From assembly GCA_022478985.1 (NCBI GenBank), contig JAKSZP010014508.1, forward strand, positions 124,001-188,000: a stretch of DNA of 64,000 nt, read 5' to 3'. The position numbers and the translations under genes are program-made. The notes beneath the pieces are model-generated. The model was not told where the DNA came from and ran no database searches. It worked only from the letters and a program-made list of their open reading frames with translations. Within the stretch, counting starts at the first letter, position 1, and the number at the start of each line of letters is the position of its first letter. Positions 13,688 to 59,868 of this stretch are shown piece by piece. Source of the stretch: Massospora cicadina (taxonomy: Eukaryota; Entomophthoromycota; Entomophthoromycetes; Entomophthorales; Entomophthoraceae).

Positions 13688-14441
13688 CATTGGACAAATG
13701 CACTCCCAGATTCAAGAGAAAATTTTTTTGGGACAAAATAGGCCAAAAGAGGAAATGTACACTTACAAGTTTGAGATAGGAAAAAGAGCTTTTTGAATAA
13801 AAATAATGATAGTATGGGCCAAAAGACCCTGGTTGATTCTCGGTGGAACCCCTTGAATCCAGGTAACACTTTTAATAATATTACATTCAATTAGCACAAG
13901 AACAGGCAGTCAGAGTTCCCCGACCAAGCAGCAGAATCTGGAAATACATTGGAGGTTCCTCCCCAGGCCACATCTAGTTCAATTCAATCACTTAAGTGGT
14001 GACCACCCCTTTTATAGGATTGTCAGGGGTCCCCTAAGGTGCAATTATTTTCTATAATGGTGATTGGTTGAAATACAAATTATTAGCCCATGGGTTTTTC
14101 TTACCTAAAAATAACTTTCCATCAGTTGTCTCACCAAAGTGAAGTAATTTCCTAAGCTCCAAAAGGTCGAAATTCATATTCCCTAATTTTGGACCATACT
14201 AAGCTATTTCAAACATTAGCATTGAATTCCCTTTGAACCTTAATACTCAATACAGTTTAAATACTGAGCAGTAGTATCGAGAAGAAGCACTTTTTGTTTC
14301 TTGTCCTGAACTCATTAAAAACCATTAAAAACCCCAACTTTACTTTTATTTAAAAAAGTATTAGCTTTGGTTTTAGAAGTGTTTAGTGGTAATCCGGCTG
14401 TTATCAACACCAGTGAGCATAAAACTTGCTGGATTCCCAAA
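13688..14441 (+). repeat. 5' LTR of family-C element C (754 bp)
   Basis: It starts at a mutated TGTTGGACAA and ends CCCAAA. It has the same length as 29180-29933, 59115-59868 and the reconstructed LTRs of F. Its 3' third (for example gcactttttgtttcttgtcc near 14288) is closest to the LTR at 43378-44276, not to the LTR at the other end of C. Confidence 0.85.
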
Positions 14442-14444
14442 AAA

Positions 14445-14464
14445 TGGTGCTCACTTCAGGGGCT
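14445..14464 (+). other. primer binding site of element C
   Basis: tggtgctcacttcaggggct follows the LTR after a 3-nt spacer (aaa). Confidence 0.8.
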
Positions 14465-14479
14465 CCTGTACAACACAAG

Positions 14480-16900
14480 TTTAATTAAGATCATAATGGA
14501 GGGCACACCTGCTGGAAGTGTTACTAGATGGGCGAGAAACGGAGATGGGGCAGAAGATGACCGTGTGGATAGCCCCCAACTTTATCATTTGAATGAGGGC
14601 AGTTGGAATGAATCCTGATGACAGAGTCTCACCGCCTTACCTGGCCTGCAGCTGAAGTAATGAGAGATTTAACTCAAGGCATATTAAACACTGGCGATAA
14701 TGCTTCTCAAGAAAGAGGCTCTTCTGTAGTGGACCATCTTAAGTATCTCTATGAGGCTTGAATCCTTCCTGATGCCTATAACCAGCTTAGCAATTTGGCC
14801 ACCTATGTCCGCAATTTTGCCCATCCTACATTGTTTCACATTATAGCCTATGAGCCGTCCATCATGAAGAGCTGCACTGACACCTGGCTAACCAGGATGC
14901 TCTAAGATTAGCTCATGATAATATATACCAACTGACATCTGAAAATGTTGGAACAGAAACATTTGGTGTGGAGGCAAACCGCAAATTCATTATTAAATTT
15001 CATGAGCGGCTCACCACCATGGATACTAGTGTAGTAAAGTATGTATAGGAGGCTATGAAGATCATCTGGGATGAGATAAATGCATTAGCTGCTAGCACCC
15101 TTTCTCTACTTGAGGAGTTTGCCAAGGAACTTGAGAAGAATGAAGAACAAACTCACCACGACTTCTTGGCTCATGCGTCCACCCTCAATCTAGTGATAAA
15201 GAACGTGTGGCTGTGGAGGAGCAGCAACTAGCTCAAGCCTTGTCACGCGTTGACTAACTCGAGCAGTGTCAGCTGCAAGAACCTTCTAGGGTTACCCCCG
15301 CTCTAAAGGTTAAGGTTGCTTAACTGGAAAAGTAGCTATCCCTTAAAGCCTCTCTTGAGAATACCAAATATTTATCCTGACGGGTTAGAAAGTGTGAAAA
15401 AGAAGATCAAGGAGTCAAGACCTCTCTTGAATGGCCCAACCTGTTGAAGGATGTGGATAGTCAATTGACACATATTAAGCGTAGCTATGAACAGATTTCG
15501 GGTGATGTATATTTGCAAGGCTCTCTACCCACATGACGAAAAAGGTGTAAGCTGATGAAAAAAGAGCTAAAAACTCGTGGAATGCTGGAATTTTGACAAA
15601 AAACCTAAGCTCTCTTGTGTCACAACTCTGTTTTAAAGTCCAAGCACTAGAGAGTCAGGTGAAGAACTGTAAACTCACAAGCATAGAATGTAAGCCCGAT
15701 TGGATTTATGGTAATACGCCTCTTATAAGCCCATCACCTCCATGAAATAGGCTTGAAGCTATCCAAGACCAGCTCTATCAACTCTCTCACTCCTTTGATC
15801 AATTTGGACCTTCTCTCAGAGACCATGGTGAAAGATGCTTCTGCAGTTCATAAACTCTCTTTTGGTGACCCTGTTTCATTAATACCAACTTTTAAGGACA
15901 AGTTTATCCTTGGTGAGGGTAGCATCGCTTCATTTTTATATATAGAAGAAGCTGCTATGGAAGGGGCAACTGACCGTCATAAAGTCAAACATATCCTCTC
16001 TTGTTTGAGTCGTATGTCCCAGGAGGTGACGTTGCCCCATATGGATGCCCTTAACACTAGGTCCGATGTTAAGGAGGCTCTCATTGACGAGTCTGGCTCA
16101 AAACAAAGCTTAAGCATGAAGAAGCAAGTGTTAATGCGCAATAGCATAAGAATAGGAGAGTCAATGGTTGCCTTTGCGGAATGGTTCTATATTGAAGTGC
16201 AGCCGTTGTTAACTTTTAAGATGTTGACCTTGGACACGTTGTTGCCGCTTACTTTCCTGGGTTGGCATCTCACCCTCCTTTAGCGATGCACATCACTTCC
16301 ATCAATCGCTATTCCTGCAACGTCCATGATATAAAAGAGGCTCTTCTAGATGTCGCTGACTTTCATAAGCTTGAAGAGTCTTGTGGAGTAGTATCCCAAC
16401 CTCGCATTCTGGCCATTGAGTATCAAAAGCTTAATCCCCAAGTCCTGACCATTGAAGAAAAAAAGAGACCCTTCAGATTATGGGCCCTGAGGAGAAAAAC
16501 AAAAAGACAAGTGGCCTGAACATCTCTGGTGTTCCTACTACAATAAGGTTGGGCAATATGAGACTGCGTTGGTGCAAAAAAAAAAAGCTGACATCAAGGA
16601 TCAGGAGGAGGAGAAAGAGATGTTGGCGTAGGGATTGTCATTCCTATTGCTGACGAACATCATGTGACTGATTTACTTACTTCCATGTTTTAATTTCCTC
16701 TTGTTGAAAATACCACTGGGGATGAAACTGAAGGGGGTTATGAGGACTTTGGTTACTACATACTAGGAGTACCCGCTGAAGTGGAGGTTCTTGATTGTTT
16801 GAACGCTGGAGGAGTAGATGAGACCACTGTACCTGAAGATACGTACCTCTGACAAGTTTTTAGTATCTTGCAGTTCTTGACACCTCCATAGATGCTAATC
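14480..16900 (+). pseudogene. gag: family-C gag, copy C, broken
   Basis: A long gag with a coiled-coil-like middle (15100-15700, rich in Glu, Lys, Leu and Gln). The best open stretch, 15753-16283 (176 codons), ends in the capsid-like part AFAEWFYIEVQPLL. Near 16525 the expected knuckle, kept in copy G as CAYCNKVGHYET, reads WCSYYNKVGQYET and has lost zinc ligands. The segment 16640-16890 is an acidic linker toward protease. Confidence 0.7.
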
Positions 16901-16914
16901 AGCACCTATCTGGC

Positions 16915-17640
16915 TTGATTCGCCCTCTCCAGCGAGGTCACACTATAAAGTCCATCTTGGATATTTACCCTGAGACTGCTCGCAAACTAACCTCCACTTT
17001 CTGGCTCAAGGAGGTCTTTGCTCTGTCGCTTAACTATGGAGGAACACTCATCAAGGTGGAAGTGGTTATTCAGAAAGTCAGAGTGATTGACATCCTGGAT
17101 ACTGGATTCACAGTGAGCGTAATCTTATCAAAGCTTATGAAAAAGATCAAGCTGGAACCTGAATTGTATTACAAATAAAGAGTTTGCAAATCAGCCTTGA
17201 AAAACACCAGCGCCATCAGGGCATAATCTTCCCTTCCCATTTGAATTGGGAAGCTCAATTTATTGGTCCCGCAGTAGCCTTAAACAACAACACCTATAAT
17301 ATGAACATAGATACTTAATTTATGATCAAATATGAGAAGAATTATCAACATGAATTAAGGTTATCTCGTTATTCTAATACGTAATCCCTTTAGTTTTATC
17401 CAATAAAGACTCCAGCAAAAGCGATTATTCTTTCCTGGTTGAGTACCTATTTTCAGTTTTACATTTACATTATACCACCGCAGGACAAAATACAAAAAAT
17501 TGCCTGATTCAGTGGATGCTATGGAAGGTACATTTTCTATGCTTCAGATGAGGTAGTAATTGAGCTGGGTATACAACAAGTGGATGACACAAAGATCACC
17601 CTCCAAATTTAACACCACTGCTGGTTGCACCTCGTAAATT
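16915..17640 (+). pseudogene. pol: family-C aspartic protease, copy C, broken
   Basis: 16915-17178 is open: RPLQRGHTIKSILDIYPE at its start, then IDILDTGFTVSVILSKLMKK with the active-site DTG kept. The second half, 17200-17640, contains several stops. In copy G the same protease is interrupted by element H just before this active site. Confidence 0.8.
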
Positions 17641-17729
17641 TGAGGGCGTGAGCCCCTTGAAGCCTTGAGTATTGCCTGGCATTCTAGACCCAGCCTACCA
17701 AAGGCCTATTACATCTCTTTGGGGAACCT

Positions 17730-18658
17730 CAACAGCAAGGACATAGTTGTAAGAAAACACCAGGAGATTAGTAGAGGCTTGTTAGTCCCTTTGGAGGACA
17801 TTGAATAAATTCACTTCATTGGCTCTACGTTGAATATGGGCCTGCCAACGATTATCTGTTATTTACCTTACATAATGTCCATATCTTGGATGATCTGACC
17901 CCAGATGAACTTGACAAAATTTACACTTTATTGGAAGGATTTAGCAACATATTCTATAAATCAGATAAAGGCTATGGCCATATGGAAGACTGGAGCCACT
18001 CCATTGAAGTGGGTGATTCCCGTCCTATTAGGTCCAACTCTTATCGTAAGTCAAAGGTTGAAGAACAACAGATGAGGACAGAGCTTCAGTAGTTTTCTAG
18101 ACACGAGGTTAATAGATCCTTCACAATGCCCTTTGTCTTCCCCCTTTTGCTAATAAAAAAGAAAAAAAGGAAATCATCAGATAGTCATGGACTACCAAAA
18201 GTTAAATAACCTCACGAATTAGGATAGCTATCTAATACCCTGCATTTAGATGCCCTGTCCCAACTCTCTGGCTCAAACTTCTTTTCCGCTATGGAATTGG
18301 CTAGCAGCTATTGGCAAATGGACCTTTCCCCTGAAGACCAGGAGAAATGTACTCTCATTTGTAGTGAGAGTCTCTTACAACCAATCCAATCACCCAAGAG
18401 TTGTGCAACTCACCTGCAACTTTCCAACATGCAATGGACTTCATCTTACAGGACCTGAAGTTAACTTGTGTCATCCTATATCTTGATTACATCATAAGAT
18501 TCTCATGAACCTTCAACGAACATCTTGATCACCTGAAGAAGGTGTATCAATGGTTACGTAAGTCAAATATTAAGTTGAAGCCCTCAAAGTGTACCTTCTT
18601 CCAAAGGAAATCGAATTTTCTTGGACACTAAATTTCCCAAGAGGGAATCCAACCCATG
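17730..18658 (+). pseudogene. pol: family-C RT, copy C, cut by element D
   Basis: 17886-18092 gives the linker before the RT fingers (LTPDELDKIYTLLEGF, then GDSRPIRSNSYRKSK). Near 18255-18420 the finger and palm regions appear in two frames. The catalytic box near 18475 reads YLDYIIRFS, so the second Asp of YLDD is Tyr. The frame ends at 18658 where element D starts; the same pol resumes at 27327 (QDKVKAISKMPHP). Confidence 0.82.
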
Positions 18659-19797
18659 TGTAGAAATTAACTTTTGGTTGATTATCGGCTATCAACCCAG
18701 TAACCTTTTTACTGCACAGGTTCAATCTCCTTGTGCACTTTGTTGCGTTGTATAGGATGTATTAATCAACGATAGTATGGAGACTATTATCTGAGTTGAG
18801 ATTGAACTATTATTTGCCCAATACTCGGCCATTATTTCTGATTAAAAACTCTTGAAGTCATAGTTGTAGGGATTCATTCCCTATACTCTTGTCCACCCAA
18901 TCTTTGTTAAGATACCCCGGTGACAGTCTCTCTTGGCCCAACACACAGTTGGCAGCTATCCCTGCTTGTGGTTCCTTTGTCTCTAGATCCCCACTCGGAT
19001 CCTTACTATTCTCTCTGAGAGTCTTCCAATTATTGCAGTCTGCAATATTATCCTTGAGATAAAGCGATACAATATAAGATGATAGTCTAACTATACACCG
19101 AATTGATAATATTATTGTGAAGTGTAATACTTTCATAGATAATAATGATTTGTTTATTATAGTAAATCTTAGGGAATTATATAGTGGGGGATTTAGCTGT
19201 CTAACCCTCAGTTGACACCTCTTCGATGAAACAGAAGCTGTTGCCATTGAATCACCCTTCCTCGTCTTGGCAGTGATGGTCTTCCCCATCCTGGCTAAAA
19301 TTCCGTCATTGGACATCCTTTAGACCTCAAACGGAAAGAGTCAGAAAACGTGTCCCTAACGTTTTCCTCTCTTTACAAGCAAATCCAACCATAATTGGCA
19401 TAGCGACCTGCTTAGGTAATGGGACTTATTACCCATTATGGCAGGTCACTTTACCAACTGATCAATTCGCTAGTTGCAGGCAGCATCACTCACTTCACAA
19501 CTTGCTATTCATTCCCAATCAGTCAGTAATGAAGCCCAACCAATCCCAATTAGTACACCTGATAGTTAATCACTATCAGATGCCCCTATTTCGTCAGGGA
19601 CTCCGCCCAATGAGATCTTAGGTATTCATCCAGATTGATCTCTGACGGATATGACCAGGAAAATCTTTAAAATCCCCTGAACATAGTTCCTCTGAGCCTC
19701 AGGCCAACTGATTTCCAATTCACTTCGCCTTAGGGAATTTTCCCCTAAAGATACCAGATAATCTAGTAGGCTGGGAATATGGGCAAAGATTCCAACA
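18659..19797 (-). repeat. 3' LTR of element D
   Basis: Collinear with 26189-27326 throughout. On the minus strand it starts TGTTGGAATC after the purine tract gcaagagggggatg (19798-19811) and ends AATTTCTACA. The minus-strand ORF 18858-19316 in it lies in repeat sequence and has no motif. Confidence 0.88.
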
Positions 19798-20300
19798 CAT
19801 CCCCCTCTTGCCTAGATTTCCAGCAAGAAAAGGACCGGAGCATGAGAACACCACTTTGCACACTTGGTTGAATACTTCATTGGTTTAAGCGGAGTACACT
19901 CATCAATACTAAATGCTGCTCGGGATGACCTTTGGCATTAGGCTTCTTCCTCTTCTTCCTCGCTACTGCCTTCTCAGAGAGCAGTCCCCATGACCTTCTG
20001 TCATGCCGGGCTGATTGATTTACTTGTGACAATATTAATCCTGTGATCCAGTTTTCCCCCATCAGGGTATAAGACCCACTGTCATATTCAGGACTCTTGG
20101 TCTAGCATCTTTGATTTCCTGATTTTCTCCTCATCCTAGACAGGAGACTCTTACTGTCAATGTTTGTTTCGTGGCTTAATTAAGAGCTCTTATTTCTTAT
20201 TCGCCATTCTTATTTCGCTCATAACCTCTTGGCATAAGTCATTCTTAATTCTTCTCTTGGAGAGCTTATCTCATTATTTTTTGAGATTAGTTTCCCCGAA
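19798..20300. other. element D internal, no gene seen
   Basis: Apart from the polypurine tract at 19798-19811 I see no coding motif in this 0.5-kb stretch. Confidence 0.5.
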
Positions 20301-20311
20301 ATTGGAGCCTA

Positions 20312-21500
20312 ATGGATTATAGAGTGCATAATGTCAACTTCTATATAAGTATGACATCCCCCTCTCGTCCAGCACATATTTCAAATTCCGAATCTCAATA
20401 CCAGCAGCTCCTCAACAGTCTGTCTGATTTAGACCTCCATCTCTTCCAGCAGATGAGTCAGGATGCTCGACAGAACCTCTTTTATGGTCCTTCTAGGACT
20501 CATACGCCTAGTCTGGCGCAATTAGCTAGTCCTTCCGTCAAATTACTAGAAATGGTAACTAATCCCTCTGAAACCAGGCTGGCCATCATTTCAAACAACT
20601 CTCGGCTGACTCTTCCTCTACAGTATATTCCAGAGTTGGACTCCAAAACCATCCTGGATTTGTCTCCTTTTGCTGATGCTCTGAACACCATCATAGATGC
20701 TCCAGAGATTAGCTGGTTGCTCTGGATCATTCATTTCTGGCCAGGTTGGAATTTCTCCCTGAGTTCCTCTTCCAGATAGGTCAATTTTAAAAACCCACTG
20801 TTCTGGTCTCCAAGCTCTCAATCAGTAACATCATACACTTTGAGCTCCCCTACGCTGAACTCTGGGCCCAAGTCACTGAGGCTTTGACATTAAAGCTGAA
20901 TCCCTCTGATCTGGATAACCTTCTGGATTGGGATACTGCTGCATATGCTCTTCGCTTTTCTGGCCAAGTTCTTAGAAGTTGGTCCACAAAGCTTCCAGCC
21001 TCTCCTGGGTTCCACCATTCATTCAGCTTTAGCTTCCATGAAGCCCATAGTCACCGCTTGCAGGATGTGATCTGCTCTCTGTACAACTATCTTTTCTCCA
21101 GAGCTTCCCATTGATATCTTCCACTGATGGCGTTAATAGGGGGCATGATTCAGCAGCCCCCATCAAATATTCCTTCTTCATTGCTGGCCCATATGTCCAG
21201 TGTCCTTTATAAGCCTGTTGGCAGGCGCGCAGGAAAAATCTTCTGGTTCCAGTGCCATATCAGGATTACTCGGGGTTATTCGCTAATTGCCTCTTTCTTT
21301 ATTTCTGCTTTCCTCCCCACTCTGGGGTTTTGCAATTGGCATCCAAAAACATCTCAATTTCCCTTCCCCTAGTCGTTTTTTTCAGGGCTCAGAATCCACT
21401 CAACAAACTTGGTTTTGTGTAGGTTTCGCCCTAGCAAGCATCCAATTGCATATCAATTTTGATGGGCTGTTCATTCCCACAGCGATCCATCCTCCCTCCC
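20312..21500 (+). pseudogene. antisense ORF region inside element D, unknown protein
   Basis: The plus strand, opposite to D, carries open stretches 20312-20779 (155 codons), 20884-21114 and 21127-21372. The first two join into one coherent protein if a frame change near 20720 is allowed; the second frame can be read back to about 20716 with a single stop (about 20794). The N-terminus is rich in Ser, Gln and Pro; the middle holds PELDSKTILDLSPFADALN and the later part LTLKLNPSDLDNLLDW. I recognise no domain. It could be an accessory antisense ORF of D or an acquired sequence. Confidence 0.5.
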
Positions 21501-21529
21501 CCAAGAGGTGACATAGGCGGAATCATCCC

Positions 21530-21853
21530 TGTACTGAGGATGATCATTAAAATTAAAAATTATAAAAATATATTGTCTTTTTTATCTATGCAGTTTATAA
21601 TTTTTCTAATATCCATTATCAATTTTTTTATCTTTATTCTTCTTTTTTACTATGGGACTTGACCTTGTTTTGGTTCAGAGGTCCATCGTTTCCCCCAAAC
21701 TGGGTCCTGGGTACTTAAACCTACCAGTTTTCCATGGTTCAGAGGTCCTTTTTTTGGACTTAACCATCTAGATTGGTTCAGAGGTCCTTTTTAGGACTTG
21801 ACCTAATCATCAGGACATGATCAACTTAATGGTTTATCAGTCCTTTGGGAACT
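21530..21853 (-). repeat. 3' LTR of element E, with GGTTCAGAGGTCC hairpin repeats
   Basis: On the minus strand it starts near GTTCCCAAAGGAC and ends CAGTACA. It shares with 24870-25123 the order of blocks gggtcctgggtacttaaacc, ggttcagaggtcc and an AT-rich end. The overlapping 3' end of pol reads into its first bases. Confidence 0.65.
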
Positions 21854-22930
21854 CTTTTATTTTTTCCTCGATTTGATACTTTAGATACTTAGCGTGGAAA
21901 CAATTTACAAATCTTCCATCCAAAAGATTATTAATGGAGTAAGCATCAGTCACCATCTTGGCGATTACTTTAAACGAACCTGATCACAACACATCCAATT
22001 TGTTTCTTCGTCCTAAACCATGCATATCACAATAGGCGACTCTTTCCGCTATTTGATATTCTTTTAATGCCATTCAGTTCTTGTCATCTGTTGATTTCGC
22101 TTGTATCTTTTTCTTCAAGGTTGTATTGAATGCTTGTAATTGCATATTGATCAGTATACTCGTCATTCTTTCAAATATTGTTCAAAATCAGCCCCAACGT
22201 AGGTTCCACCAGCGAATATAAAATTGGCAGAAACTCGGCCTTCTTTCCATATAGTAATTCAAATGGCGTCTTACCCATCATGGTATGATGACTAATGTTG
22301 TAGGCGAACATTACTGAACTCAAATACATTCCCCACATGGAAGTTCTCCCTGCGATTAGCTTCCTCAGAGTCATGGCAAGCATCCCAATGACCCATTCTA
22401 CCAGTTTGCTCATCTCCAGCCAGTATGGTACTGACATGACTCCTTTGATCCCCATTATTTTGTTTAACCTCAGGATCACATGAGACATGAATTTGGTCCC
22501 ATTGTCACTCAACAGAACTTGCAGACATCCATGTCAATATACTACTTGATCCAGGATGAATATCGCAGTTTCGATAGCATCAACTTGGGTTAAAGCCTTC
22601 ATCTCGACCCATCTCTAAAGATGGTCAATGCAACTATGATGTACGTGACTCCCCCTGTGCTCATCGTCAGTGTCCCATCACATCAATGGACACCGTGTGC
22701 CAGGAAAATCCAGGGCGGACCAGTCAGTATCCAGTTGTATTCTTATGTGGTTTGTGCAGCTGGCACTCCACGCAACAAGACAGATGATCCGCGACATCAT
22801 AGTTGATCAATTTCCATTAATAATACTGGCAAATATGGTCAGTTGTTTTCCTCAAGCCTCCGTGCCTGACAACCTTGTGAGCTGCTTGTACTATCGCTGC
22901 TCTTTCTGACAGTTTTGGGTATAATAGCCG
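21838..22930 (-). pseudogene. pol: element E integrase, broken
   Basis: Minus strand, from the right: HKVVRHGGLRKTT and CCVECQ (zinc-binding end, about 22880-22760), then SDNGTKFMSH near 22510 and the open stretch 22512-22171, where the Glu region reads LEMSKLVEWV. The C-terminus (about 22000-21840) reads GSFKVIAKMVTDAYSIN, the GPY/F module, and stops inside the LTR start. Stops interrupt the first half. Confidence 0.82.
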
Positions 22931-23640
22931 CTTCCCATTGATCATCTTGGATACTTGTCCATCCATAGTCTCGGTGTTTTCCATCACTTTTTGAAGCGCA
23001 CCTTGGATTTCTCAGGGCTCGTCCCCAATTCTTCCTTTGACCATTCTCTGGAATAGCTCATCCTCCTGAAGGTATACCAACAGGACCATTGGCAACCGCG
23101 ATAAGCCATCTGCATTATGATGAGAAGCCCACATTTGGTGGACTATCTCATAATCGTAAGCCTGAAGCTTAAGTGCCCATCAGACCAGTTGTCCTTCCGG
23201 TTCTCTTAGATTGTGTAGCCAATGCAGCGAAGAGTGGTCCATAACCACCTTAAAGTGCGTTCCGTGAATGTACACCCAAAACTGCTTTCATGCGTATATG
23301 ACTGCAAGGTATTCCCACTCTATCACGGTGTAGTTCCTCTTAGCAGCTGAGAGTGTCCAGCTACATATGCCTCCAGATGCATGTCCCCAAGTTTATCTAC
23401 TTGGCTCAGTACAGCGCTGATTGCCATCAACGAAGCATCAGTCTGAATGATAAACTCCCAATCGAAATTTGGATATTTTAGAATCAGCGAATCTATCAGA
23501 TACTGGCGTAACTCAACGAAGTAGTCCTGGGCCTCTTCTTTCCATATGAAGCCTTCATTTGGGTCCTTTAATAAATGAAATAAAGGCTCGGCTATTCAGG
23601 TGAAGTCCTGAATAAATCTTCTGTAGTATTTAACCATCTT
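22931..23640 (-). pseudogene. pol: element E RNase H, broken
   Basis: Minus strand: DASGG near 23375, NYTVIEWEYLAVIYA near 23330 and VVMDHSSLHWLHNL near 23250, then HHNADGLSRLP near 23110. The order and spacing fit a gypsy RNase H. Single stops occur, for example in the helix after YLAVIYA. Confidence 0.82.
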
Positions 23641-24300
23641 GAGGAATACTTAAATGTTTCAGACACCCTTTGGTGCAGCCATACGCTCTATAGATGCTAT
23701 CTTCTGGGTTTGCGGCTGCAATCCACTTGAGTTGATTACAAATCCCAGGTATTCCAACTCTTTCTTAAAGAAGTGGCACTTCCTTGGCTTGATCATCAGG
23801 TTAGCCGTGAACAGTCTCTTAAAAACTTCATCCAAGTGGTGCAAGTGATCAGTAAACGTCCTACTGAACATGTTTATATCGTCCAGATATACCAGGACGC
23901 ATGACAACTTCAGGTCGCTTGATATCACGTCCATTGCCCTCAGGAACATCGCGGGCACATTGCAAAGACCATGGGGCATCCTCGCCAGCTGGTATAACCC
24001 CTGCTCAGTAATAAATTGCGCATCTTTCTTGGTCTTCCTTTGGCAAGTCGATCTGCCAATTTCCCAAGATTAGATCCATCATGGAGAAATACTTCACTTC
24101 TCCTAAACGATCCAATGCATCGTTGAGCCTCAGTAGGGAATACAAATCCTTCTTCATAATTTTGTTCAGCCTCCGGTAGTCAATCACCACCCAGTTCAAT
24201 CCTTCCTTCTTCTTCACAATCAAAATTGGACTCACCCAGGGACTTGATGATGGAACTAGAAGCCCATGCTTCATTAGTTTGCGATCTCATCCTCCAATAC
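23641..24300 (-). pseudogene. pol: element E reverse transcriptase core
   Basis: Two open stretches: 24274-24005 (LNWVVIDYRRLNKIMKKD, then FSMMDLILGNWQIDLP) and 23979-23659 (MPHGLCNVPAMFLRAMD, catalytic YLDDINMFSRTF, ELEYLGFVINSSGLQP). Both catalytic aspartates are present. Only one frame break separates the halves, so it is among the better kept gypsy RTs here. Confidence 0.88.
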
Positions 24301-24353
24301 CGCTTTGGCAGTTTTCAATCTTCAGATTGGTCTCATTCTTATTTGTAAATTTT

Positions 24354-24842: not shown

Positions 24843-25123
24843 GTCTGAAAATCATAGACCATAAATCGATATTTAATAAGTTTTATAAATATTTTTTGCA
24901 TTCTTCTTTTGCAATGGGACTTGCAACCTACAAAAAGGCTCAGAGTTTCTTCTTTTCCCTTCATCCAAACTGGGTCCTAGGTACTTAAACCTACCAGTTA
25001 TCATAGTTCAAAATCTTATACTCTTAAGATTTAACCAACCATTTGGTTCAGTGGTCCCCTTCTGGGACTTGACCAAAATCTCAGGACATAACCATTTAAT
25101 GGTTCAGAGGTCCGCTGGGAACA
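24839..25123 (-). repeat. 5' LTR of element E
   Basis: Counterpart of 21530-21853. On the minus strand it starts TGTTCCCAGCGGACC. It carries the same ggttcagaggtcc and ggacttgacc blocks; the AT-rich 3' end is poorly conserved. Confidence 0.6.
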
Positions 25124-26166: not shown

Positions 26167-26167
26167 A

Positions 26168-47864: not shown

Positions 47865-47869
47865 GGCTC

Positions 47870-48511: not shown

Positions 48512-48516
48512 TCCTT

Positions 48517-49739
48517 TGTGACAAATGGGGTCCTTCCACATTGCAACAAAACAGTTGGGCAAGAGGGTCCAAGTGAGGTCCCACAAACAGGAGAGTGCAG
48601 CTGTAGTCAAGTCCTTCGTTTGTTGGCTTGATGAGCAATTATTGATATATTCTTGGAATATGGTAAGGACAATGCTGACACTGATTAGAACAGTTTGTCC
48701 ACCAGAGAGGGCGTACAGAGAGGCGACTGCTCTTTTAAAGTATGAGGAATAATCCATTTGTCACTCAAAGTCCAGGGTTTTTCTCCAAAATTAAATAAAT
48801 GATTTTAAGCTTTTAAAAGTTTTAGTTCCGATTTTTGAGAATTTTAATTAATATACTAGAAGATGAAGTTGTCCTAAACACCTTCGTCTGATTGTATTTA
48901 TGTTAGGAAGCGGAAGATATGGGGGAATTTTTTCCCACAGAGTTTTCATACAGCAGGCTATCCATGGGCCTATTTTGAGAATCTCAGCCTCTGATATTCC
49001 CATCTGGGCCCATTCTAGACCGTTCATTGGGTACTCCAGGCGTTATGAAAAACTTTTCCACATACAATTTCATTCATTAGGGACAAATCAGAGCTTGGCA
49101 TTCTCATATCAACCTTATCACAAAATTTGAAATTAATGTTTATTAAAAGTTTTCTGACAATTTCTGAACTACTCAGCTGCTGCTCCCCATAACTCTCGAC
49201 ACTTCTATTTTTGGTATAATTTGGATTGGCAGCCCCTGATTCGCTGAGCTGCCATTTGCTATGAGTCTCAATAATCTCATATAGCAGTGGATTCAGCTTG
49301 GCAGCTCCTGATTCGCTAATCTGCCTTTCACCATGAATCTCGATATTCTCATCTAGTGGTGGATTCTGCTTGGCAGCTCTGATTTGCTGAGCTGTCTAAT
49401 GCCGTGGTTCTCAACATTACTGCTTTTAGCATAATTTGGCTCGACGGTTTCTAATTCGCTGGGCTGCCCTTTGCCGTTGTCATTATTATTATTTAGCTCA
49501 TCAGACTTTGGGTTGGCAGCCCTTGACTGGCCTGGTCGCCATTTACATCAACCCTTGCCACCTCTACTCTGAGGTTTAGTTGATTTGTCAGCATCTGATT
49601 TATCAGAATGCCATTTATGAGGGTCGTTGCCCTCAAACCCTATGATTTTATTATTATTATCTATGTTACTAAGAGCTAAATTCCCGCCTTAGGGGGGGTT
49701 GGGGCTATGTGGCAGTCAGGTAGCGCCTTGACCGTCACA
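48517..49739 (-). repeat. 3' LTR of H (1223 bp) with five 72-bp units
   Basis: On the minus strand it starts TGTGACGGTCAAGGCGC after a purine tract and ends TTTGTCACA. 72-bp units begin near 49153, 49225, 49297, 49369 and 49440. One unit more than the other LTR explains the length difference. Confidence 0.88.
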
Positions 49740-50811
49740 TCACCCCTCAGAGGAGAGCCCCCCTGTGCCCCAGTATTCCTCCACCTTCCAGGGACAGTTG
49801 GCGCAATTGGTGGCTGTTTGCCAGGAGGATTCTTCTATCAGTTAGACGACCCATTTTACCAAGTACCATCACTTTTTGTGAACGATCTTGGTATTCAGAA
49901 TCTCCTCCACCTCATACTCCAGCTCCTTGGTTGTCCGACTGGACCAGCTCCAACTTTGCTGGTATGTGCCTTCATATTTCTTGAGCTGCAAAACGTGCAA
50001 AACAGGTGTGCATGTGATCCTTCTGGGAATTCTAGTTCATACGCCACCTCATTCACCTGTCAAAGGACCTTGTAGGGTCCTAAGTTGATGGGTCTGAACT
50101 TTCTACACTGTCTTTAGGGTGTGTAGTATATGACATTTATCAAGATATAGTCTCCATTTTTGAGGGGCGGAGCCTCAGAGCGATGCGCATCTGCCTTCCT
50201 CTTCTGGGCCTCCACCACCTTCTCCAGGTTGTCTCTCAATGTCTTAAACTTTTCCCTCATTCCAGTCACTAAATCATCTGCCATGGGGTTCATTCCCCCA
50301 GCGTGTCCCTCCATCATCCGTGGGTGATACTCATGATTTGCAAAAAAGGGCGACATTCCGGTTGATGAGTGTGCCAGGTTGTTGTATGAAAACAGTGCAA
50401 TTCTCAGCCACTTGATCCAAAGATCTTGTCAGGTGGTGAGTTAGTACCATAGGTAATGTTCAAGGTTCTGATTGACACTCTCCATCTGGCCAACTGATTG
50501 GGGATGGTAAGCGGAGGACTGGAATGGTTTAATCTTAAGATTTTCAGGCGGTGATTCCAGAACCTAGAGATGAACTTCGGGCCCCTGTCTGAGATGACCT
50601 CATCTGGGAGTCCATGTCAGACAAAGACCTCCCTCATAAAGATTTCAGCCATGTCCTTCGCCATGACCTTAGAGGTGCATGGGAAGAACTCAGCATATTT
50701 TGTTAGTCAGTCCTCTACCACCATGACTGCATCATAGCCCTCCAATTTTGGATGCCCGGTGATGAAATCCATGCTAAGGGAGGTGTAAGTCTCAGGGAAC
50801 ATCCTTTGCTC
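49740..50811 (-). pseudogene. pol: H integrase core, C-terminus and chromodomain
   Basis: Minus strand: SLSMDFITGHPKLEGYDAVM (about 50785, first Asp), [14 protein letters not shown] (about 50610, second Asp), MSPFFANHEYHPRM (50356), then KADAHRSEAPPLKNGDYIL. Around 49925-49800 EYEVEEILNTKIVHKK and WYLVKWVV, followed by EESSW, is a chromodomain, with a stop in the middle. Chromodomains of this class bind methylated H3 and guide integration into heterochromatin. Stops also occur in the core. Confidence 0.83.
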
Positions 50812-50820
50812 TTGATCAGG

Positions 50821-52224
50821 TCATTTTCCTGTTCCAGAATAAAAGACACCGAAGAGGATGGCGGTACCTCTCATCACTCAGGGCGACCTCACTCACGTAG
50901 TAGATGAGCGATGGGTAACAGCTTGTCCGCTCCAGATCCCACCCCCAATACCCACACTTACCTTGGCAGAACTGTTGTGGGGAATTAGTGAAATCTGTGC
51001 CAAGATTACTGAGCTTAAATCGGCTGTATCTAATTCGGCCAGCAATCTGGCTGATGCCCAAAATTCAAATGGCTGTAAAAGCATGAAGAATGAGATATTG
51101 GCTTGATCGCCCAATGGTTCTAATTTTATCTCCAAACCAGTTGAACAAATATTGGGTGCTATTGATGGGGGTTTGAAGCCCTCAGATAGTAATTTGGGCG
51201 TTGCGCCCAATGTGCTGCTGTTGACTGAACAAATAAATTAATGACTGAGTGCAGGTGGGTTGGCCATCCTGGACCCATTCCCAACCAAATGGACCTGTCC
51301 CTATAAGGGATGGCCTTGGGGGATTCCTGTCACCCGATGGGCCAAACGCTGTCATGCTAATCATTGGAAACGTAGTCAATCCCTGGTTTGGACATCTGAG
51401 GTTGAACTGAAAGAGACTCGGCCTGCCACCAAATTTTACAATTTTGGTTCCTAAATAATAAACCCCCCCATTCCCAAACAATTCGCCGGTTAGGTCATAT
51501 CTGTGGGTCCCAACCCCATCCTGTCACTACCCAATTGACCACTATTTAATCAGTTGCATGGCACTGAGAAAACTGTTGAATGATTTTCTTACTTTCCTTT
51601 CCTAATAAATTTTTGCCAAAAAAAATCAAATTTTCTTTATTTTCCATTCTGACCGCATCCCAGATGGCATTTCCCTGGTGGTCCATCACCCCGCACTCTG
51701 GGTGGGCTTTACTAATTCTTTTGGTCACCATGGCTCCCACTATCATTGATTGGGCCCAGCGAGTCTGACACTTTTGGTCTTACAACCCCACTCTTATGAA
51801 TTTCTGACAACAATAAATGGGGATCTTATGGCCCTATGTACAACAATGGATAGAGAGAATCCATCTCCCTATTGCCCCCAGATGAGTTGGTCTCTCAAGC
51901 CAAGAATCTCGTTGAGCCTGTCCCAGTAATCCCACCTCCTGCAGTTAAAACCACTGAGTTGGGAATGGGTTCAGCGTGGTTTGCCGTTGGAACACTCCTT
52001 ACCCTGTTGTTACACCACCACTTCGTGGTATCACATTTTCCAGCTCTATATCAAGTCGTATGGTTGGCAATGCCTCTGGCATTCTGACTTGCTTTTTGGG
52101 TGCTCACACTTCCCAACTGGCAGGCCAGTTTAAACTCCTTCTGCCGTTTCCATGACAGGAGGTCCACGGCATTCATTAGATATTAAGTGTTTTAACTTCC
52201 CTGTGGGTTTGCTTCAAGATGGCT
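50821..52224. mobile_element. insertion X, 1.4 kb, unknown type, 9-bp target duplication
   Basis: It separates the zinc-binding end of the H integrase (right) from the core (left). Flanks are ttgatcagg at 50812-50820 and 52225-52233, and its removal restores the integrase order CLTC to SRAKDVP. No terminal inverted repeat, A tail or LTR is visible. Plus-strand ORFs 50858-51106 (LTLAELLWGISEICAKITEL, a short helical stretch), 51260-51454 and 51872-52087 are short and unrecognised. A 9-bp duplication is common for Mutator-like transposons, but the ends do not support that. Confidence 0.6.
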
Positions 52225-53210
52225 TTGATCAGGCACAGGTAAGGCAGCGTGCAGTATACCCTCTTACGGTTCCCACTAGGACCAGCCAGGAGTATTTCCA
52301 GCGTATCAGTTCAAATTGTTTTCCCCACACCAGGGTGTCCCGCCATGGGGTGGTCATGACATAACTCCATTACTTCATTTTGAAGCTTGAGCGTTGGGTT
52401 CATAGGCGGTCATGGTGTAGGATGAGGACCCCTCCTTCCTAAAATTCTTGTAGCCTTCGCTGGGGCCCCCCTCCCTCTATCTCTCTCCTGACCTTGTCCC
52501 CAAATTTGGTGCGTCATTGGGATGTCCAGATTCTCTCTGTTAAGTTGGCACGTTCTTCCTGTATCGATACAAACACCTGGTGAGGGAGCATTGTGACCAT
52601 GTTGAACACGTCCAGCTCCTCCTTCATGAAGGTCATTTTTGGGTCCCAGCTAAGTAGGTCTGGAAGTAAGGATTGCTCTCCCTAGGCTTGTATTCTATTT
52701 TGAAGTCATATTGATACAGCTCTAGGTGCCAGCGGGCTTGTCTATGGTTCATCCTATGGGGGCTCTTATGGAACTCCAAAGCCCTGTGGTCAGTCTGGAT
52801 TATGAATGGGTGGCACGTTTACAACAGATGATGCTGCCACTTGTCTAGTGCTGTGACGATCTCCAGGAGTTTCTTGTCATAGATGGGGTAGCTTGTTTCC
52901 GCTGGTAGCATATTCCTGCTGAAGTAGCATATGGGTGCTCCAAACCATCCTCACCTGTCTGCAAGAGGACCGCCCGAATGGCAAATTTTAATGCATCTGT
53001 CTCCACAATGAATGGATGACTAGCATCCGTTTGCACTAGGACTGGCGCTGTGAGAAGGGCCTCCTTGATGGCCTGGAACGCCATCTCTTCCTCCTCTCCC
53101 CATTGAAAAGGGACTTGCCCAGTCAACTGGGTAAGCGGGGTGGCTGTTTCTGAGAGGTCCTTGGTGAATCTCCTCAGGAAATTCACCACCCCTAAGAAAC
53201 TGCGCACACA
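52225..53210 (-). pseudogene. pol: H RNase H and integrase zinc finger, broken
   Basis: Minus strand. 53207-52845 is open: MRSFLGVVNFLRRFTKDLSE, then FIVETDALKFAIRAVLLQ (first Asp). Then TDHRALEFHKSPHRMNHRQA near 52790-52730 and IEYKPRESNP. The integrase end reads HDHPMAGHPGVGKT near 52350 and VRGYTARCLTCA near 52245, the HHCC finger. Frame breaks between. Confidence 0.83.
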
Positions 53211-53925
53211 CCTGTCTTATCCGTTGGCGCTGCCCACTCCTTCACTGCTGTCAGCTTTTCTGGGCAGATGGCTGTTCCCTTATTGAATACAACGTTGCCT
53301 AGGAAAGATACTGAGCCCTTATAGAACTTGCATTTGGAGGACTCCACATGCAGGTTAGCCTTGTCCAGTGCCCTGAGGACCTTCTTGACGTCCTCTGTGT
53401 GCATCTCGTGAGACTTGGAGAACACCAGGATGTCGTTCATGTATACAACACAGCATTTCCCAATCAAGTCGCCCAGGGCATGGTCAATGGTCCTTTGGAA
53501 AACGGCTGGGGCGTCTTTAAGTCTGAATGGCATGACCTTGTACTCATATACCCCTAGGTGGCACCTGAAGGCCATGTACTGTTGGTGCTTGGGTACAGCT
53601 GGCACTTGGTTGAAGGCGTAACCAGGTCCAACTTTGAGAACACCTGACTCCCAGCGATCATCTGGGAGATTCTCGCCATTAGTGAAATGGGATAGGGGTC
53701 CATTTCAGTTATGGCGTTCAAATGGCGGTAGTCAACACAGGGGCAGAGCTTGCTGTTTTTTGGGGACCAGGAGGATGGGAGACACCACTGGAGATTTGAA
53801 GGCACAATCATCCCTCGCTCCATTATATCCTTCACGTACTGGTCTAAGACTTCCCTCGCTCTGGGGTTCAGGGGGTACACTGGGCTTCCTTTTGGGAGCT
53901 CAGCATCCCCTTTGAACTTGAACAA
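53192..53925 (-). pseudogene. pol: H reverse transcriptase, broken
   Basis: 53925-53554 is open: AELPKGSPVYPLNPRAREVL, SKLCPCVDYRHLNAITEMDP, SQVFSKLDL. 53605-53192 follows in another frame: FRCHLGVYEYKVMPFRLKDA, then CVVYMNDILVFSKSHEMHT, so the first Asp of YMDD is Asn (GAC to AAC would do it). Confidence 0.87.
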
Positions 53926-55230
53926 GAATATGAAGGGGCCCTATGGAGCGCAGGTGGTGGCAACGCTCCTCTAGAACAGGTGTTCATAGTCTCTGAATTC
54001 CTCTGGTAACTTTTCCTCTCTGTCCCTAGGTGCACAGAGCTCACGCCAGGCCTGCTCCTTCCCAAGATAAAGAATTCTACCATTATAGGCTCTTTAATCC
54101 TTTGGGGTGAAGCATCACTAGCTCTCCTCCAGATCAAAATGTGTGGAGTACTTGTGCCACCATCTCATGCCCAGAACGATGGGGTGGGGCAGGTTCTAAA
54201 TAGCGCAAAATTCTTCCCAGAATTGGTAGGTCCCTGTTGAAGCTTTATACTGGGCTTGATCCCAAAGCATTCTGACGACTTGGAGGTGTCCGCAAGAGTC
54301 ACAATACCCTTTTCTTGCATTTGTACTTTCAATTTCTAGGCTAACTCCAGGTCCAGGTAGTTTTCTTCAGCTCCAATTTCCACTAGCGCCCAAATTTTTC
54401 TAACTTGACCCATTTCCCTTTCTTCTTTCGCTTCAAAGTAAACGGAATAAACAGATAAGAGGAACCGTTTCCTTTATTGAGCAAAGAAATGCGAGCAGGG
54501 GTCAGGCGAAGGTTGTAGGTGGGGCCGTCCAAGCCGCTGGGAGTTGTGGGTGCAGGAGCTGCAGAGCGTGGGGCAGTTATACTGGAGCCCCCTGCTCTTG
54601 TTGCCCCACATGTTTTGAGATGAGCTCTGACTCCGCGTGTCATCCAAGTAATCTACTGTGGTTCCCAGGCACAGGGATCCTGGCTTGGGCAAGGCTAGCT
54701 GGTTCACTACCTGAGAGGCAACAGTGACATCTTCCTCCAAGGTTGTCCCCAGGTGGGTAGCGGCCATAGCTTTGTGGATGTCCGGGCGAAGATTCTGTCT
54801 AAATATCTGTGTGAACTGGGAAGGAGTCACTTTTGCAGCTTTGGCTAGAGGCTGGAACAGCTGGGAGTTTCATTGATGGACATTTTCCCCTGGCTAAGGG
54901 CTAAGAGCGCTGACCAGGCGGCATCCTGAGTGTTGTGTGGGGTGGCGACTCAAAAAATAAAAATGGAGAAAGTCCTCCAGAGAGGTTGGAAGGACCAGCT
55001 GTGTTTCCAAGAGTTCAGTAAGCTAGATGGACAGGTTCATTGGCAGATCCACTATCACCTGAGCGATCTGGAAAGATGCTGCCATTGTTCCCCTAGTGGC
55101 CGTAGTGAGGTGGGCCTGCTATCTGATGCGAGAGAAGGTTCCATGCATTACACTCAACTTCTACGGGATCAGTTCTTGTCTAAACTTGGACATGGCGCCA
55201 ATGTGTTGGACATAAGCAATGTAATACCCT
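53926..55230 (-). pseudogene. gag: H gag and protease, broken
   Basis: 54830-54474 carries FTQIFRQNLRPDIHKAMAAT, THLGTTLEEDV, the C-terminal gag region of chromoviruses. Upstream (55230-54840) is the gag N-terminus with stops. Around 54400-54350 the protease start reads GKWVKLE, then ALVEIGAEENYLDLELA; the catalytic Asp is Glu. 54137-53868 is the protease-RT linker. Confidence 0.72.
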
Positions 55231-55394
55231 CAGGATGGAAGGACGCGAGTGGCTTTCTTTAGCAGGAACATTATGGAAAAGAAAACCATCAGGAGAGTGG
55301 TTGTGTGCTTATACCAAGTGGGTAGGGCTCTCTCATATGGTTTCCCCATCTCATCCCATAAAATGGAGATGAGATTAAAAAGAACTTCGTCTAA

Positions 55395-56548
55395 TGTGAC
55401 AAAAGGGGTCCTAACACATTGCAAAAAAACAGTTGGGCAAGAGGGCCCAAGTGAGGTCCCACAAACAGGAGAGTGCAGCTGTGGTCAAGTCCTTCGTTTG
55501 TTGGCTTGATGAGCGATTATTGATATATCCTTAGAATATGGTAAGGATGATGCTGACACTGAGTAGAAAAGTCTGTCCACCAGAGAGGGCGTACAGAGAG
55601 GCGACTGCTCTTTTAAAATATGAGGAATGATCCATTTGTCACTCAAAGTCCAGGGTTTTTCTCCAAAATCTAAATAAATGTTTTTCAAATTAATTAAAAT
55701 TTTATTTATGATTTTGAGATTTTTAATTAATATGCTAGAAGATGAAGTTGTCCTAAACACCTTCGTCTGATTGTATTTATGTTAGGAAGCGGGGGATATG
55801 GGGGAATTTTTTCCCACAGAGTCTTCAGACAGCAGGCTATCCATGGGCCTATAACAAGAATCTCAGCCTCCGATATTCCCATCTGGGCCCATTCTAGACT
55901 GTTCATTGGGTACCCCAGGCGTTACAGAAACTTTTCTGCATATAATTTCATTCATCGGGGACAAATCAGAGCTCAGCATTCTTGTATCAACCTTATCACA
56001 AACTTTTGAAATTAAAATTCATTAAAAGTTTTCTGCTGATTTCTGATTCACTTGGCTGCTGCTCCCCTTGACTCTCAAAACTTCCATTTTTGGTATAATT
56101 TGGCTTGGCAGCCCCTGAATTTCTGGGCTGCCCTTCGCCATGGCTCTCAATATTCTCATCTAGTGGCAGATTTAGCTTGGCAGCTACTGATTCGCTGAGC
56201 TTCCAAATGCCATGGTTCTTGATGCTACTGCTTTTGGCATAATTTGGTTTGGCAGCCCCTGATTCGCTGGGCTTCCCTTTGCTGTTGTCATTATCATTAT
56301 TTAGTTCATCAGACTTCAGGTTGGTGGCCTTTGATTGGCCCAGTTTCCATTTAAATACATCCTTTCCACCTCTGCTCCGAGGTTTAGTCAATTTGTCAGC
56401 ATCTGATTTGTCAGAATGCCATTTATGAGGGTCGTTGCCCTCAAACCCTATTATTTTATTATTATTATCTACATTGCTAAGAGCCCCAATCCCTGCCTTA
56501 GGGGGAATTGGGGCTATGTGGCGGTCATGCAGCGCCTTAACTGGTACA
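55395..56548 (-). repeat. 5' LTR of H (1154 bp) with four 72-bp units
   Basis: On the minus strand it starts TGTACCAGTTAAGGCGC at 56548 and ends CTTTTGTCACA at 55395. 72-bp units begin near 56032, 56104, 56176 and 56248. The adjacent internal sequence (ttagacgaagttc) is not a PBS of the type used by the other families. Confidence 0.88.
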
Positions 56549-56646
56549 TCCTTTTGCCATAAGGTGGAGGTTATTTTGCGAGCAGTCTCAGGGTAAATAT
56601 CCAAGATGGACTTCATAGTGTGACCTCGCTGGAAAGGGCGAATCAA
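55996..56646 (-). other. chimeric ORF: G gag-pol joined to the H LTR
   Basis: 217 codons. The first 30 or so (MIRPFQRGHTMKSILDIYPE and on) are the end of family-C gag-pol; the rest is H LTR. The LTR part reads the 72-bp units in frame as 24-residue repeats (SESGAAKPNYAK, then a variable half), rich in Ser, Asn, Lys and Glu. The join is an accident of insertion, but the repeats stay open through the whole LTR half. Confidence 0.7.
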
Positions 56647-59090
56647 GCCAGATAAGAGCTGATTAGCATCGCTGGAGGTGTCAAAAACTGCAAGACACTA
56701 AAGGAGTTGTCAGAGGTACAAATCTTCAGGTAGGGTGGTCTTATCTACTCCTCCAGCGTTCAAACAATCAGGAACCCTTACTTCAGCGGGTACTCCTAGT
56801 ATGTGGTAACCAACATCCTCATAACCCCCTTCAGATTCATCCCCGGTGGTATTTTCAACAAGAGGAAATTAAAACATGGAAGAAGGTAAGTCAGTCACAT
56901 GATATTCGTCAGCAATAGGAATGTCTATCCCTAAGCCATCACTCTTTCCCCTTCTCCTACTCCTTGATGTCACCTTTCTTTTTCCACCACACAGTCTCAT
57001 AGTGCCCAACCTTATTGCAGTAGGCACACCAGAGATGTTTAGGCCGCTTGTCTTTTTGTTTTTACTCCTCAGGGCCCATAATCTGAAGGGTCTCTTTTTT
57101 TGTCTTCAATGGCCAGGACTTGGGGCTTGAGCTTTTGATACTCGATGGCCAGAAAGCGAGGTTGGGATACTACTCCACAAGAAACTTCAAGCTTGTGGAA
57201 TTCAGCGACATCTAGTAGAGCCTCTTTTATATCATGGACGTTGCAGAAATAGCGATTAATGGAAGTGATGTGCATCGCCAAAGGAGGTTGAGATGCCAAC
57301 CCAGTCAAGTTAGCGGCAACAGCGTCATCCAAGGTCAACATCTTAAAAATTAACAACGGCTGCACTTCAATATAGAACCATTCCGCAAAGGCAACCACTG
57401 AGTCTCCTATTCTTATGCTATTACGCATGAACGCTTGCTTCTTCATGCTTAAGCTTTGTTTTGAGCCAGACTGTCAATGAGAGCCTCTTTAACCTCGGGC
57501 TAGGTGTTAAGGGCATCCATATGGGGCAACATAACCTCCTGGGCCATAAGACTCAAACAAGAGAGGATATGTTTGACTTTATGACGGTCAGTCGCCCTCT
57601 CCATAGCAGCTTCTTAGATATATAAAAATGAAGCGATGCTATCCTCGATAAGGGTAAACTTGTCTGTAAAAGTTGGTATTATTGAAACAGGGTCATCCCC
57701 AGAGAGTTTATGAATTGCAGAAGCAACTTTCACCATGGTCTCTGAGAGAAGGTCTAAATGATTAAAAGAGTTAGAGAGTCAATAGAGATGGTCTTGGATT
57801 GCTTCAAGCCTGGTTTTCATGGAGGTGATGGGCTTATAAGAGGTGTATTCACATAAAGCCAATCGGGCTTACATCCCATCTTGTAAGTTTCTAGTTCTTC
57901 AACCCTACCCTCCATTGCCTTGACTTTAAAATGGAGTTATGGCACATGGAAGCTTAGGTTTTGTTGACCAATTTCCAGCACCCCAAGCGCTTTTTGAGCT
58001 CATCTTTCATCTGCTTACATCCTTCATCATCATGGGGATGGGAGCCTTGCAAATATACGTCGCTCTTAACCTGTTCATAGCTTCGCTCAACCTGCGTCAA
58101 TTGACTATGCGCTCCTTCAACAAGTTGGGCCATTCAAGAGAGGGCTTGACTCTTTGAGTTTTTTTCACATTTGCTAACCCGTCAGGCTAAGTATTTGGTA
58201 TCCTCAAGAGAGGATCTAAGGGATAGCTCCCTTTACAGTTAATCAACCTTGACCTTTAGCGCGGGAGCAGCCCTAGAAGATTCTTGAAACTGACGCCGGT
58301 CAAGTTTCTCAACGCGTGACAAGGCTTGGCTAGTTTCTGCTCCACCACAGCCACACGTTGTTCATCCTAAGGTTGAGGGGTGGATGCGTGCGCCAAGAAG
58401 TTGTGGTGAATTTTCTCTTCATGCTTTTCGAGTTCATTGGCAAACTCCTCAAGTAGAGAGCGGGTGCTAGCAGCGGATGCATTTAACTCATCCCAGATGA
58501 TCTTCATAGCCTACTCTACACTTTAATACACCAGTATTTTTGGTGGTGAGTCGCTCATGAAATTGAATAATGAATTTGCGGTTTGCCTCCACACTAAATG
58601 TTTCTGTTCCAATATTTTCAGAGGTCAGTTGGTATATATTATCATGAGCTAATCTTAGAGCATCATGGTTAGCCAGGTCTTAGTGCAACTTTTCATGATG
58701 GACGGCTCATAGGTTATAATGTGAAACAATTTAGGATGAGAAAATTTGCGGACATAGGTAGTCATACTGGTAGCTGACTGTAGGCTTTAGGAAGGATTTG
58801 GATCTCATAGTGGTACATTAAATAATTCTCTTCATAAACCTCTTTCTTGTGAAGCAATGTCGCCAGGGTTAATATGCCGTGCATTAGGTTTCTCACTACT
58901 TCAACTGCAGGCCAGGTAAGGAGGTGAGACTCTGGTATTAGGATTCGTTCAAAAAGCTATTTTTCAAATGATAAAGTTGGAGGCTATCCATATGATCATC
59001 TTCTGTCTCATCTCCATTTCTCACCCATCTAGTAACACTTCCAGCAGGTGCGCCCTCCATTATGATCTTAATTAAACTTGTTTTGTACAG
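56554..59090 (-). pseudogene. gag: family-C gag, copy G, broken
   Basis: Minus strand. 57446-57069 is open and matches copy C: AFAEWFYIEVQPLLIFKMLT, HDIKEALLDVAEFHKLE. The knuckle near 57040-57000 reads CAYCNKVGHYETVW: three of four zinc ligands remain, the last Cys being Trp. 58500-57850 holds the coiled-coil-like middle. The N-terminus (59000-58550) is stop-rich. The family's gag is about 800 codons long. Confidence 0.78.
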
Positions 59091-59091
59091 G

Positions 59092-59111
59092 AGCCCCTGA
59101 AGTGAGCACCA
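59092..59111 (-). other. primer binding site of G
   Basis: On the minus strand, tggtgctcacttcaggggct, identical to the site of copy C, after a 3-nt spacer. Confidence 0.8.
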
Positions 59112-59114
59112 TTT

Positions 59115-59868
59115 TTTGGGAATCCAGCAAGTTTTATCCTTACTGTTATTGATAACAGCTGGATTTTCACAAAATACTTAAATCAAAGTTATTAATTTTT
59201 ATAAAAAAGTATTGAATAGGTTTTTAAAGAAATTTTTTATTAGTAGCGGCCAAGAAACAAAAACGTACTCTCTAAATATCTTACCAGATAGTATTTACCT
59301 TTTATTGAGGTTCAAAGGGAACTCAATCTTAAGTTTGGAATAGCTTAGTAAAGTCTAAAATAGGGAATATGGGGATTCAACCTACCAGGGCTCTAAAAAA
59401 ACTTGCCTCACTTTTGCAGAATGTCCAAGTAAAAGTTAGTTGTAGGTAGATCAATCCATTTGGCAAGGATTTTGATATATCTGATCCAATCACCTTGAAA
59501 ATTTTTACACCAGTTGGGTCCCTTTGAGGCTATAAAATGGGGTGGTCCCCACGTAGGTGGTTTGTCTAAGTTGTTAATGGAATGCGGAGGAACCTTGGAT
59601 GGACTCCCCAATTCCACCAAATGATTCGGAAAATCTGAGTGCCTGAACTTGTGCTATTTTCCCAGAAATATAATTACCAAAAGTTTTGCTCCAATTTAAG
59701 AGGGGTTTCACAGAGAATTGGAAGGGACTTTTGGCCAATAATATAATTATTTTTACTTAAAAAGTTCTTATCAAAATATCAAACCTGTAATGGTCCAAAT
59801 TACCCCCTTTCAGCCTATTGTACAAAAAAAGATTCTTCTCTCAAAGCTGAGAGAGCAATTGTCTGACA
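59115..59868 (-). repeat. 5' LTR of family-C element G (754 bp)
   Basis: On the minus strand it starts TGTCAGACAATTGC and ends CCCAAA. Its 3' third (ctatctggtaagatatt, gtttcttggccgc) matches 29180-29933, the 3' LTR of copy C. Confidence 0.85.

Follow-up and report, generated by a model that had tools for sequence, protein, structure and literature searches.

Crossed LTRs and split target sites point to an inversion between two facing retrotransposons in Massospora cicadina

C and G, two members of a single LTR retrotransposon family, lie in opposite orientation on a contig of Massospora cicadina (JAKSZP010014508.1, assembly GCA_022478985.1). These facing copies very probably underwent ectopic recombination, which inverted the DNA between them, and the original insertions, X and Y, are now distributed over both. 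In the sequence itself, the LTRs of C and G pair crosswise, both target sites are split between the copies, and some tracts of similarity are specific to C and G. Ectopic recombination between facing copies accounts for all three features. Coordinates refer to the window, which is the whole stretch of 64,000 nucleotides analysed (positions 124,001 to 188,000 of the contig).

According to the proposed history, X, with LTRs of an alpha type, and Y, with LTRs of a beta type, would have inserted facing each other. The target of X would have been an old Ty3 element, D, interrupted in its reverse transcriptase, and that of Y an old repeat, E. The inverted copies would then have recombined by ectopic homologous recombination with crossover, which would have flipped the DNA between X and Y. 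The products would be two chimeras, C with the 5′ end of X and the 3′ end of Y, and G with the 5′ end of Y and the 3′ end of X. Gene-conversion patches between C and G would have accompanied or followed the exchange, one of them stopping inside the 3′ LTR of C. We infer that the DNA was flipped in the genome itself rather than in the assembly, that it involved a single crossover, and where this crossover lay. Divergence is about 30% between alpha and beta LTRs and 15–20% between family interiors, which is high for homologous recombination unless more similar patches were used.

Structure of the two copies

C and G each contain one nested LTR element of 8–9 kb. The interior of C, on the plus strand, comprises a left part at 14442–18658 and a right part at 27327–29179, separated by an element at 18659–27326 whose LTRs are identical at 979/1134 positions. 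The interior of G, on the minus strand, comprises a 5′ part at 56549–59114 and a 3′ part at 44277–48516, the latter with an insert at about 45279–45988. The element nested in G occupies 48517–56548, has an LTR pair identical at 1000/1151 positions, and carries TCCTT at both sides. The sole Pfam match in six pieces of C and G is RT_RNaseH at 21.9 bits (cut-off 24.8), and five pieces are matchless. Element A, a Ty3 neighbour in the window, has reverse transcriptase, RNase H, and integrase in this order above the curated cut-off at 6119–7695.

The word TGGTGCT lies just past the 5′ LTR in A (3548–3554), in C and G (14445–14451), and in D (10285–10291). The next four bases are CACT in A and C, and TAAG in D; the shared word possibly represents a common primer-binding site. 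A short insert occurs twice, at 43453–43581 in the 3′ LTR of G and at 43067–43194 in D, with 90.7% identity over 129 bp. A stretch that looks tRNA-like, with A and B boxes read from an alignment, suggests that the insert is perhaps a tRNA-derived SINE. Neither ARAGORN nor Rfam, the latter scanned at gathering thresholds, calls this insert, and both were without hits across the whole window.

Pairing of the LTRs

The four LTRs are located where the sequence-only reading had placed them. The 5′ LTR of C (C5, 13688–14441, plus strand) is of the alpha type except for its last two diagnostic sites, which are beta, and the 3′ LTR of G (G3, 43378–44276, minus strand) is likewise alpha. These two are assigned to X. 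The 3′ LTR of C (C3, 29180–29933, plus strand) is alpha to LTR position 88 and mostly beta from position 199, and the 5′ LTR of G (G5, 59115–59868, minus strand) is beta; both are assigned to Y. G3 measures 899 bp compared to 754 bp, with some 145 bp inserted close to its end accounting for the excess.

Site patterns and identities bear out the crossed similarity that the same reading had described, with poorer matches within each copy. Two-against-two sites in the LTR alignment group C5 with G3 and C3 with G5 in 67 cases, C5 with C3 and G5 with G3 in 14, and C5 with G5 and C3 with G3 in 11. C5 and G3 are identical at 573/747 positions, or at 545/678 with G3 truncated to its first 690 bases, which excludes most of the insert. 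C3 and G5 are identical at 581/744 positions. The within-copy values are 526/741 (C5–C3) and 489/737 (G5–G3), and the remaining ones 506/734 (C5–G5) and 515/745 (C3–G3).

A tree was built from 28 LTRs, four from the window and 24 from 17 of the 20 fetched family copies; LTR matches below 560 alignment columns were excluded. C and G aside, 38 places were scored; the 20 copies were all taken from the upper ranks, with one place near a contig end skipped, and the genome searched amounts to 1.4699 Gb in 16968 contigs. The tree contains an alpha class with C5 and G3, a beta class with C3 and G5, and a third group without window members. An LTR tree had been named in advance as the test of crossed pairing, and the predicted grouping was obtained with IQ-TREE, in which C5 and G3 are sisters (98/93), as are C3 and G5 (98/96). 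Forcing the within-copy pairs costs 138 (C5 with C3) and 123 (G5 with G3) log-likelihood units, so the within-copy pairing is rejected. Of the control copies, seven contributed both LTRs to the tree, and in 7/7 the pair are sisters, with weak support in L016 and L018.

FastTree recovered only C3 with G5 (0.975). Both C5 and G3 fall in the alpha group in this tree, but not together, G3 standing beside another alpha LTR. C5 with G3 is the weaker of the two crossed groupings. Because some further alpha LTRs match C5 at least as well (up to 80.8%) as G3 does (about 80%), the target site outweighs the tree for X, which rests mainly on its site in D.

Target site of X

The target flanks are stronger proof of the inversion than the LTR tree. 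The left half of D (9611–13687, plus strand) has LTR-like similarity at 9611–10301, followed by pol to the middle of the reverse transcriptase, and its 5′ LTR proper probably ends near 10284. The right half (40965–43377, minus strand) matches the remainder of this domain together with RNase H and integrase. The peptides left of C match the pol of element A as far as the reverse transcriptase, and the minus-strand peptides below 43378 match the remaining reverse transcriptase, RNase H, and integrase. With the D flanks rejoined, the frame reads QGLYQPTRMSQGLCNAPPTFQHAM around the join, and joins in the present order break the frame.

The 3′ LTR of D is present in two minus-strand pieces, at 40685–40964 (66.7% identical to 9611–9896) and at 31935–32347 (70.7% identical to 9895–10301). 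They are separated by element F (32348–40684, plus strand), which is nested in this LTR and has the flanks GCCGT and TCCGT. The LTRs of D pair solely across the flip, 9611–10301 on the plus strand with 40964–40685 and 32347–31935 on the minus strand. The two LTR pieces are still similar some 17 bases beyond the likely LTR end, and a target site duplication of D itself was sought and not made out. The 5′ LTR of F has a 1.9-kb insert of its own at 32363–34249, flanked on either side by TTTTGGACATTTGCC (15 bp), and a short T run marks the plus-strand start of this insert, which is perhaps a LINE-like insertion on the minus strand. A relative of the first part of this insert (79%) lies in G at 45273–45938.

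The target site duplication of X consists of AGGAT (13683–13687, plus strand) and ATGAT (43373–43377, minus strand). These flanks, proposed earlier as the junction of one restored element, are present, agree in four of five bases, and have the right location in copies of D. All three D copies fetched from 39 other scored places (L044–L046) run across the join, where the two flanks of X overlap by 5 bp. The flank left of C5 stops at base 199, 199, and 197 of the respective locus, and the G3 flank starts five bases inside, its first 2–10 bases being extrapolated in one comparison and aligned in another.

Target site of Y

The right flank of C3 (29934–30633, plus strand), which is the searched part of the right half of the Y target, belongs to the old repeat E, with relatives that are 66–72% identical. 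The left half is the 177-bp flank of G5 at 59869–60045 (minus strand). In five of the ten fetched copies of E (L047, L049, L051, L053, and L056), this flank matches directly upstream of the right one. The offset between the two flanks at the join ranges from −4 to +3 bases, as obtained by ungapped extrapolation over the last 34–48 bases of the left flank. In the other five copies, the 177-bp flank has no significant match. The target site duplication of Y is poor (TAAAG and GGGAG, 2 of 5) and requires a small deletion or several changes. The joined site has no reading frame.

A LINE starts at about 60046, directly beyond the 177 bases, and covers 60046–64000 on the minus strand. It has 39 other copies at 93–95% among the 40 scored of 6015 first-look candidates, and is therefore not part of the Y target. 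It contains a TTAAATTTAAGT-type repeat near its 3′ end, and a LINE protein at 61398–62108 matches a Massospora cicadina protein with 86% identity, the alignment covering 41% of the query.

In a cross-control on the plus strand at an E-value of 1e-3, no copy of D matched the E flanks and no copy of E matched the D flanks. The G5 flank was limited here to the 177 bases before the LINE; a longer flank matched the D copy L045 through its LINE part. The looser cutoff (E-values up to 1) gives some weak matches of the D flanks to copies of E, the best at 0.007. The earlier proposal that flipping the interval between C and G restores two normal elements agrees with these flanks, as D rejoins across X in 3/3 copies and E across Y in 5/10.

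Gene conversion and the position of the crossover

The interior alignment has eight rows, namely C, G, and six control copies with all five segments. C and G are 0.80–0.82 alike to the six controls, which are 0.82–0.85 alike among themselves. C and G are 0.91–0.93 alike in four tracts and 0.76–0.82 alike between the tracts, whose borders come from a two-state segmentation with author-set identities of 0.80 and 0.915. Sites that are shared by C and G and absent from the six controls number 149, compared to 7–32 such sites in the 27 other pairs. The first of the two larger tracts covers 15688–18079 of C (plus strand, identity 0.911) and corresponds to 57874–56554 and 48516–47449 of G. The second covers 28688–29378 (plus strand, 0.912 in 28688–29179), corresponds to 44777–44281 of G, continues into G3, and ends at the alpha-to-beta switch at 29267–29378. 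Short tracts are found at 14442–14593 (0.934) and 14822–15125 (0.921), both on the plus strand. C and G agree at 9/9 alpha/beta diagnostic sites in 17505–18179. Gene conversion between the two copies is a well-supported reading of these patches of about 91% on a background of 80–85%, taken together with the private sites.

Over the initial 80 columns of the 3′ LTR alignment, C3 and G3 agree at 75/80. C3 has the alpha type of C5 and G3 at 6/6 diagnostic sites between LTR positions 26 and 88, and G3 is alpha at the same six. Either the start of the 3′ LTR of Y was overwritten by alpha sequence from X, or the crossover itself lies at 29267–29378. The two beta sites at the end of C5 hint at conversion in the opposite direction. 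The sequence-only reading had given 29180–44276 as the minimum inverted interval. This minimum is slightly smaller, an estimated 29.38–44.07 kb, because the start of C3 carries the C5/G3 type.

A scan of the interiors for the crossover, suggested by the same reading, revealed the C–G tracts, but the crossover point is not visible. Placement from alpha- and beta-type interiors failed, with window means of about 0.82 both within and between the classes. The classes are about equally alike inside, and therefore only the 3′ LTR edge is informative on the crossover. The alpha and beta LTRs sit on interiors without a clear class difference, as if the LTRs had been reassorted with the interiors before the copies spread.

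Divergence and order of events

The K2P distances of the LTR pairs are 0.232 for X, 0.256 for Y, 0.202 for F, 0.154 for the element nested in C, and 0.146 for the one nested in G. The LTR pieces of D, which is interrupted by X, are merely 67–71% identical. This order of LTR divergence fits the nesting. The conversion tracts, with about 9% difference, look younger than the elements nested in C and G, an order that is not firm because LTRs may diverge at another rate than interiors. In the family copies (L009–L028), the tree distances between LTRs of the same insertion are about 0.20–0.25 in 5/7 copies and exceed the interior divergence between copies. Either the LTRs mutate faster or the interiors undergo homogenisation. 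Faster LTR evolution alone was considered as the cause of the drop in C–G identity at the LTRs and was rejected, as it leaves the crossed pairs and the private C–G sites unexplained.

Alternative explanations

The main and only serious rival is a flip in the assembly, in which X and Y are intact in the genome and the assembler joined inverted copies wrongly. Inverted repeats permit both orders, and passages of the published genome description (PMC9584336) give an assembly of 1.488 Gb with 92% transposable elements, made with wtdbg2 from Nanopore reads with an N50 of 5,209 bp. Such an error is improbable here, although conceivable. The longest unbroken homology between C and G is about 2.6 kb in the interior (3.3 kb with the LTR), which is below the read N50, and even its best tract is merely about 91% identical. 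Elsewhere, copies with LTRs about 7–8 kb apart and interiors 0.82–0.85 alike stayed separate. A misjoin alone would not produce shared sites that are specific to C and G. No second contig of the locus was found among the 40 scored places per search, where the best other matches reach 84% for the C interior (G itself 86%), 70–71% for the D flank, and 71–72% for the E flank.

A second alternative dispenses with the inversion and explains the swapped LTRs by gene conversion, either between the two copies or with other members of the family as donors. Such conversion is itself well supported for C and G, but it cannot place the halves of D and of E at opposite ends of C and G, and this contradiction makes the alternative very unlikely. 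Template switching during reverse transcription is a well-known source of recombination in retroelements, and alpha and beta LTRs on undifferentiated interiors would suit elements that were mosaic at birth, but an insertion should begin with two identical LTRs, as the 7/7 controls fit, and the split target sites are unexplained by such an origin and contradict it, which leaves it scarcely credible.

Comparison with known systems and significance

Events of this kind are already known, and C and G are a complete reciprocal example. For HERV-K (HML-2), passages of PMC11379458 describe rearrangements (Hughes and Coffin 2001, 2005) in which discordant LTR trees indicate proviral recombination, and note that the 2001 study identified no reciprocal pairs in humans. 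In both systems, recombination between two copies is read from discordant LTR trees. On the points these passages cover, C and G differ in showing both reciprocal products and both target sites. The same source describes the gibbon SERV-K/MER11 provirus 10_73510506-gib, which has discordant LTRs, non-matching target site duplications, and a reciprocal solo-LTR partner, and is read as a chromosomal translocation. C and G share the discordant LTRs, the non-matching duplications, and the reciprocal partner, whereas they represent an inversion confined to 46 kb, and both of the reciprocal chimeras are full.

In Atlantic cod, inversions mediated by transposable elements are attributed to ectopic recombination, with arrays of MITEs located at large, haplotype-defined inversions, according to passages of PMC12368964. 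Related inverted elements at both breakpoints and the expectation of chimeric elements are common to the cod and to C and G. C and G are LTR elements, in contrast, and the old order is read from nested targets in one genome. In maize CEN10, passages of PMC4806543 report chimeric centromeric retrotransposons and inversions reconstructed through synteny with sorghum. Complete elements with mismatched target site duplications are read there, too, as recombination products. The maize elements are centromeric and their inversions come from synteny, whereas nested targets provide the old order for C and G.

An inversion can thus be recognised from nested insertions in a single genome, by crossed LTRs and two split targets, with no sister species. 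The same test is applicable across this Ty3-dominated genome to count flips by facing copies. C and G also illustrate, at a local scale, clear gene conversion between diverged retrotransposon copies. A more tentative idea, which we consider possible and somewhat doubtful, is that C and G form a standing recombination pair, with repeated exchange after insertion, four tracts, one of which replaced the beginning of C3 by alpha sequence, and the inversion as one outcome. Facing pairs like C and G may then be a general driver of local inversion and homogenisation throughout the 1.5-Gb genome.
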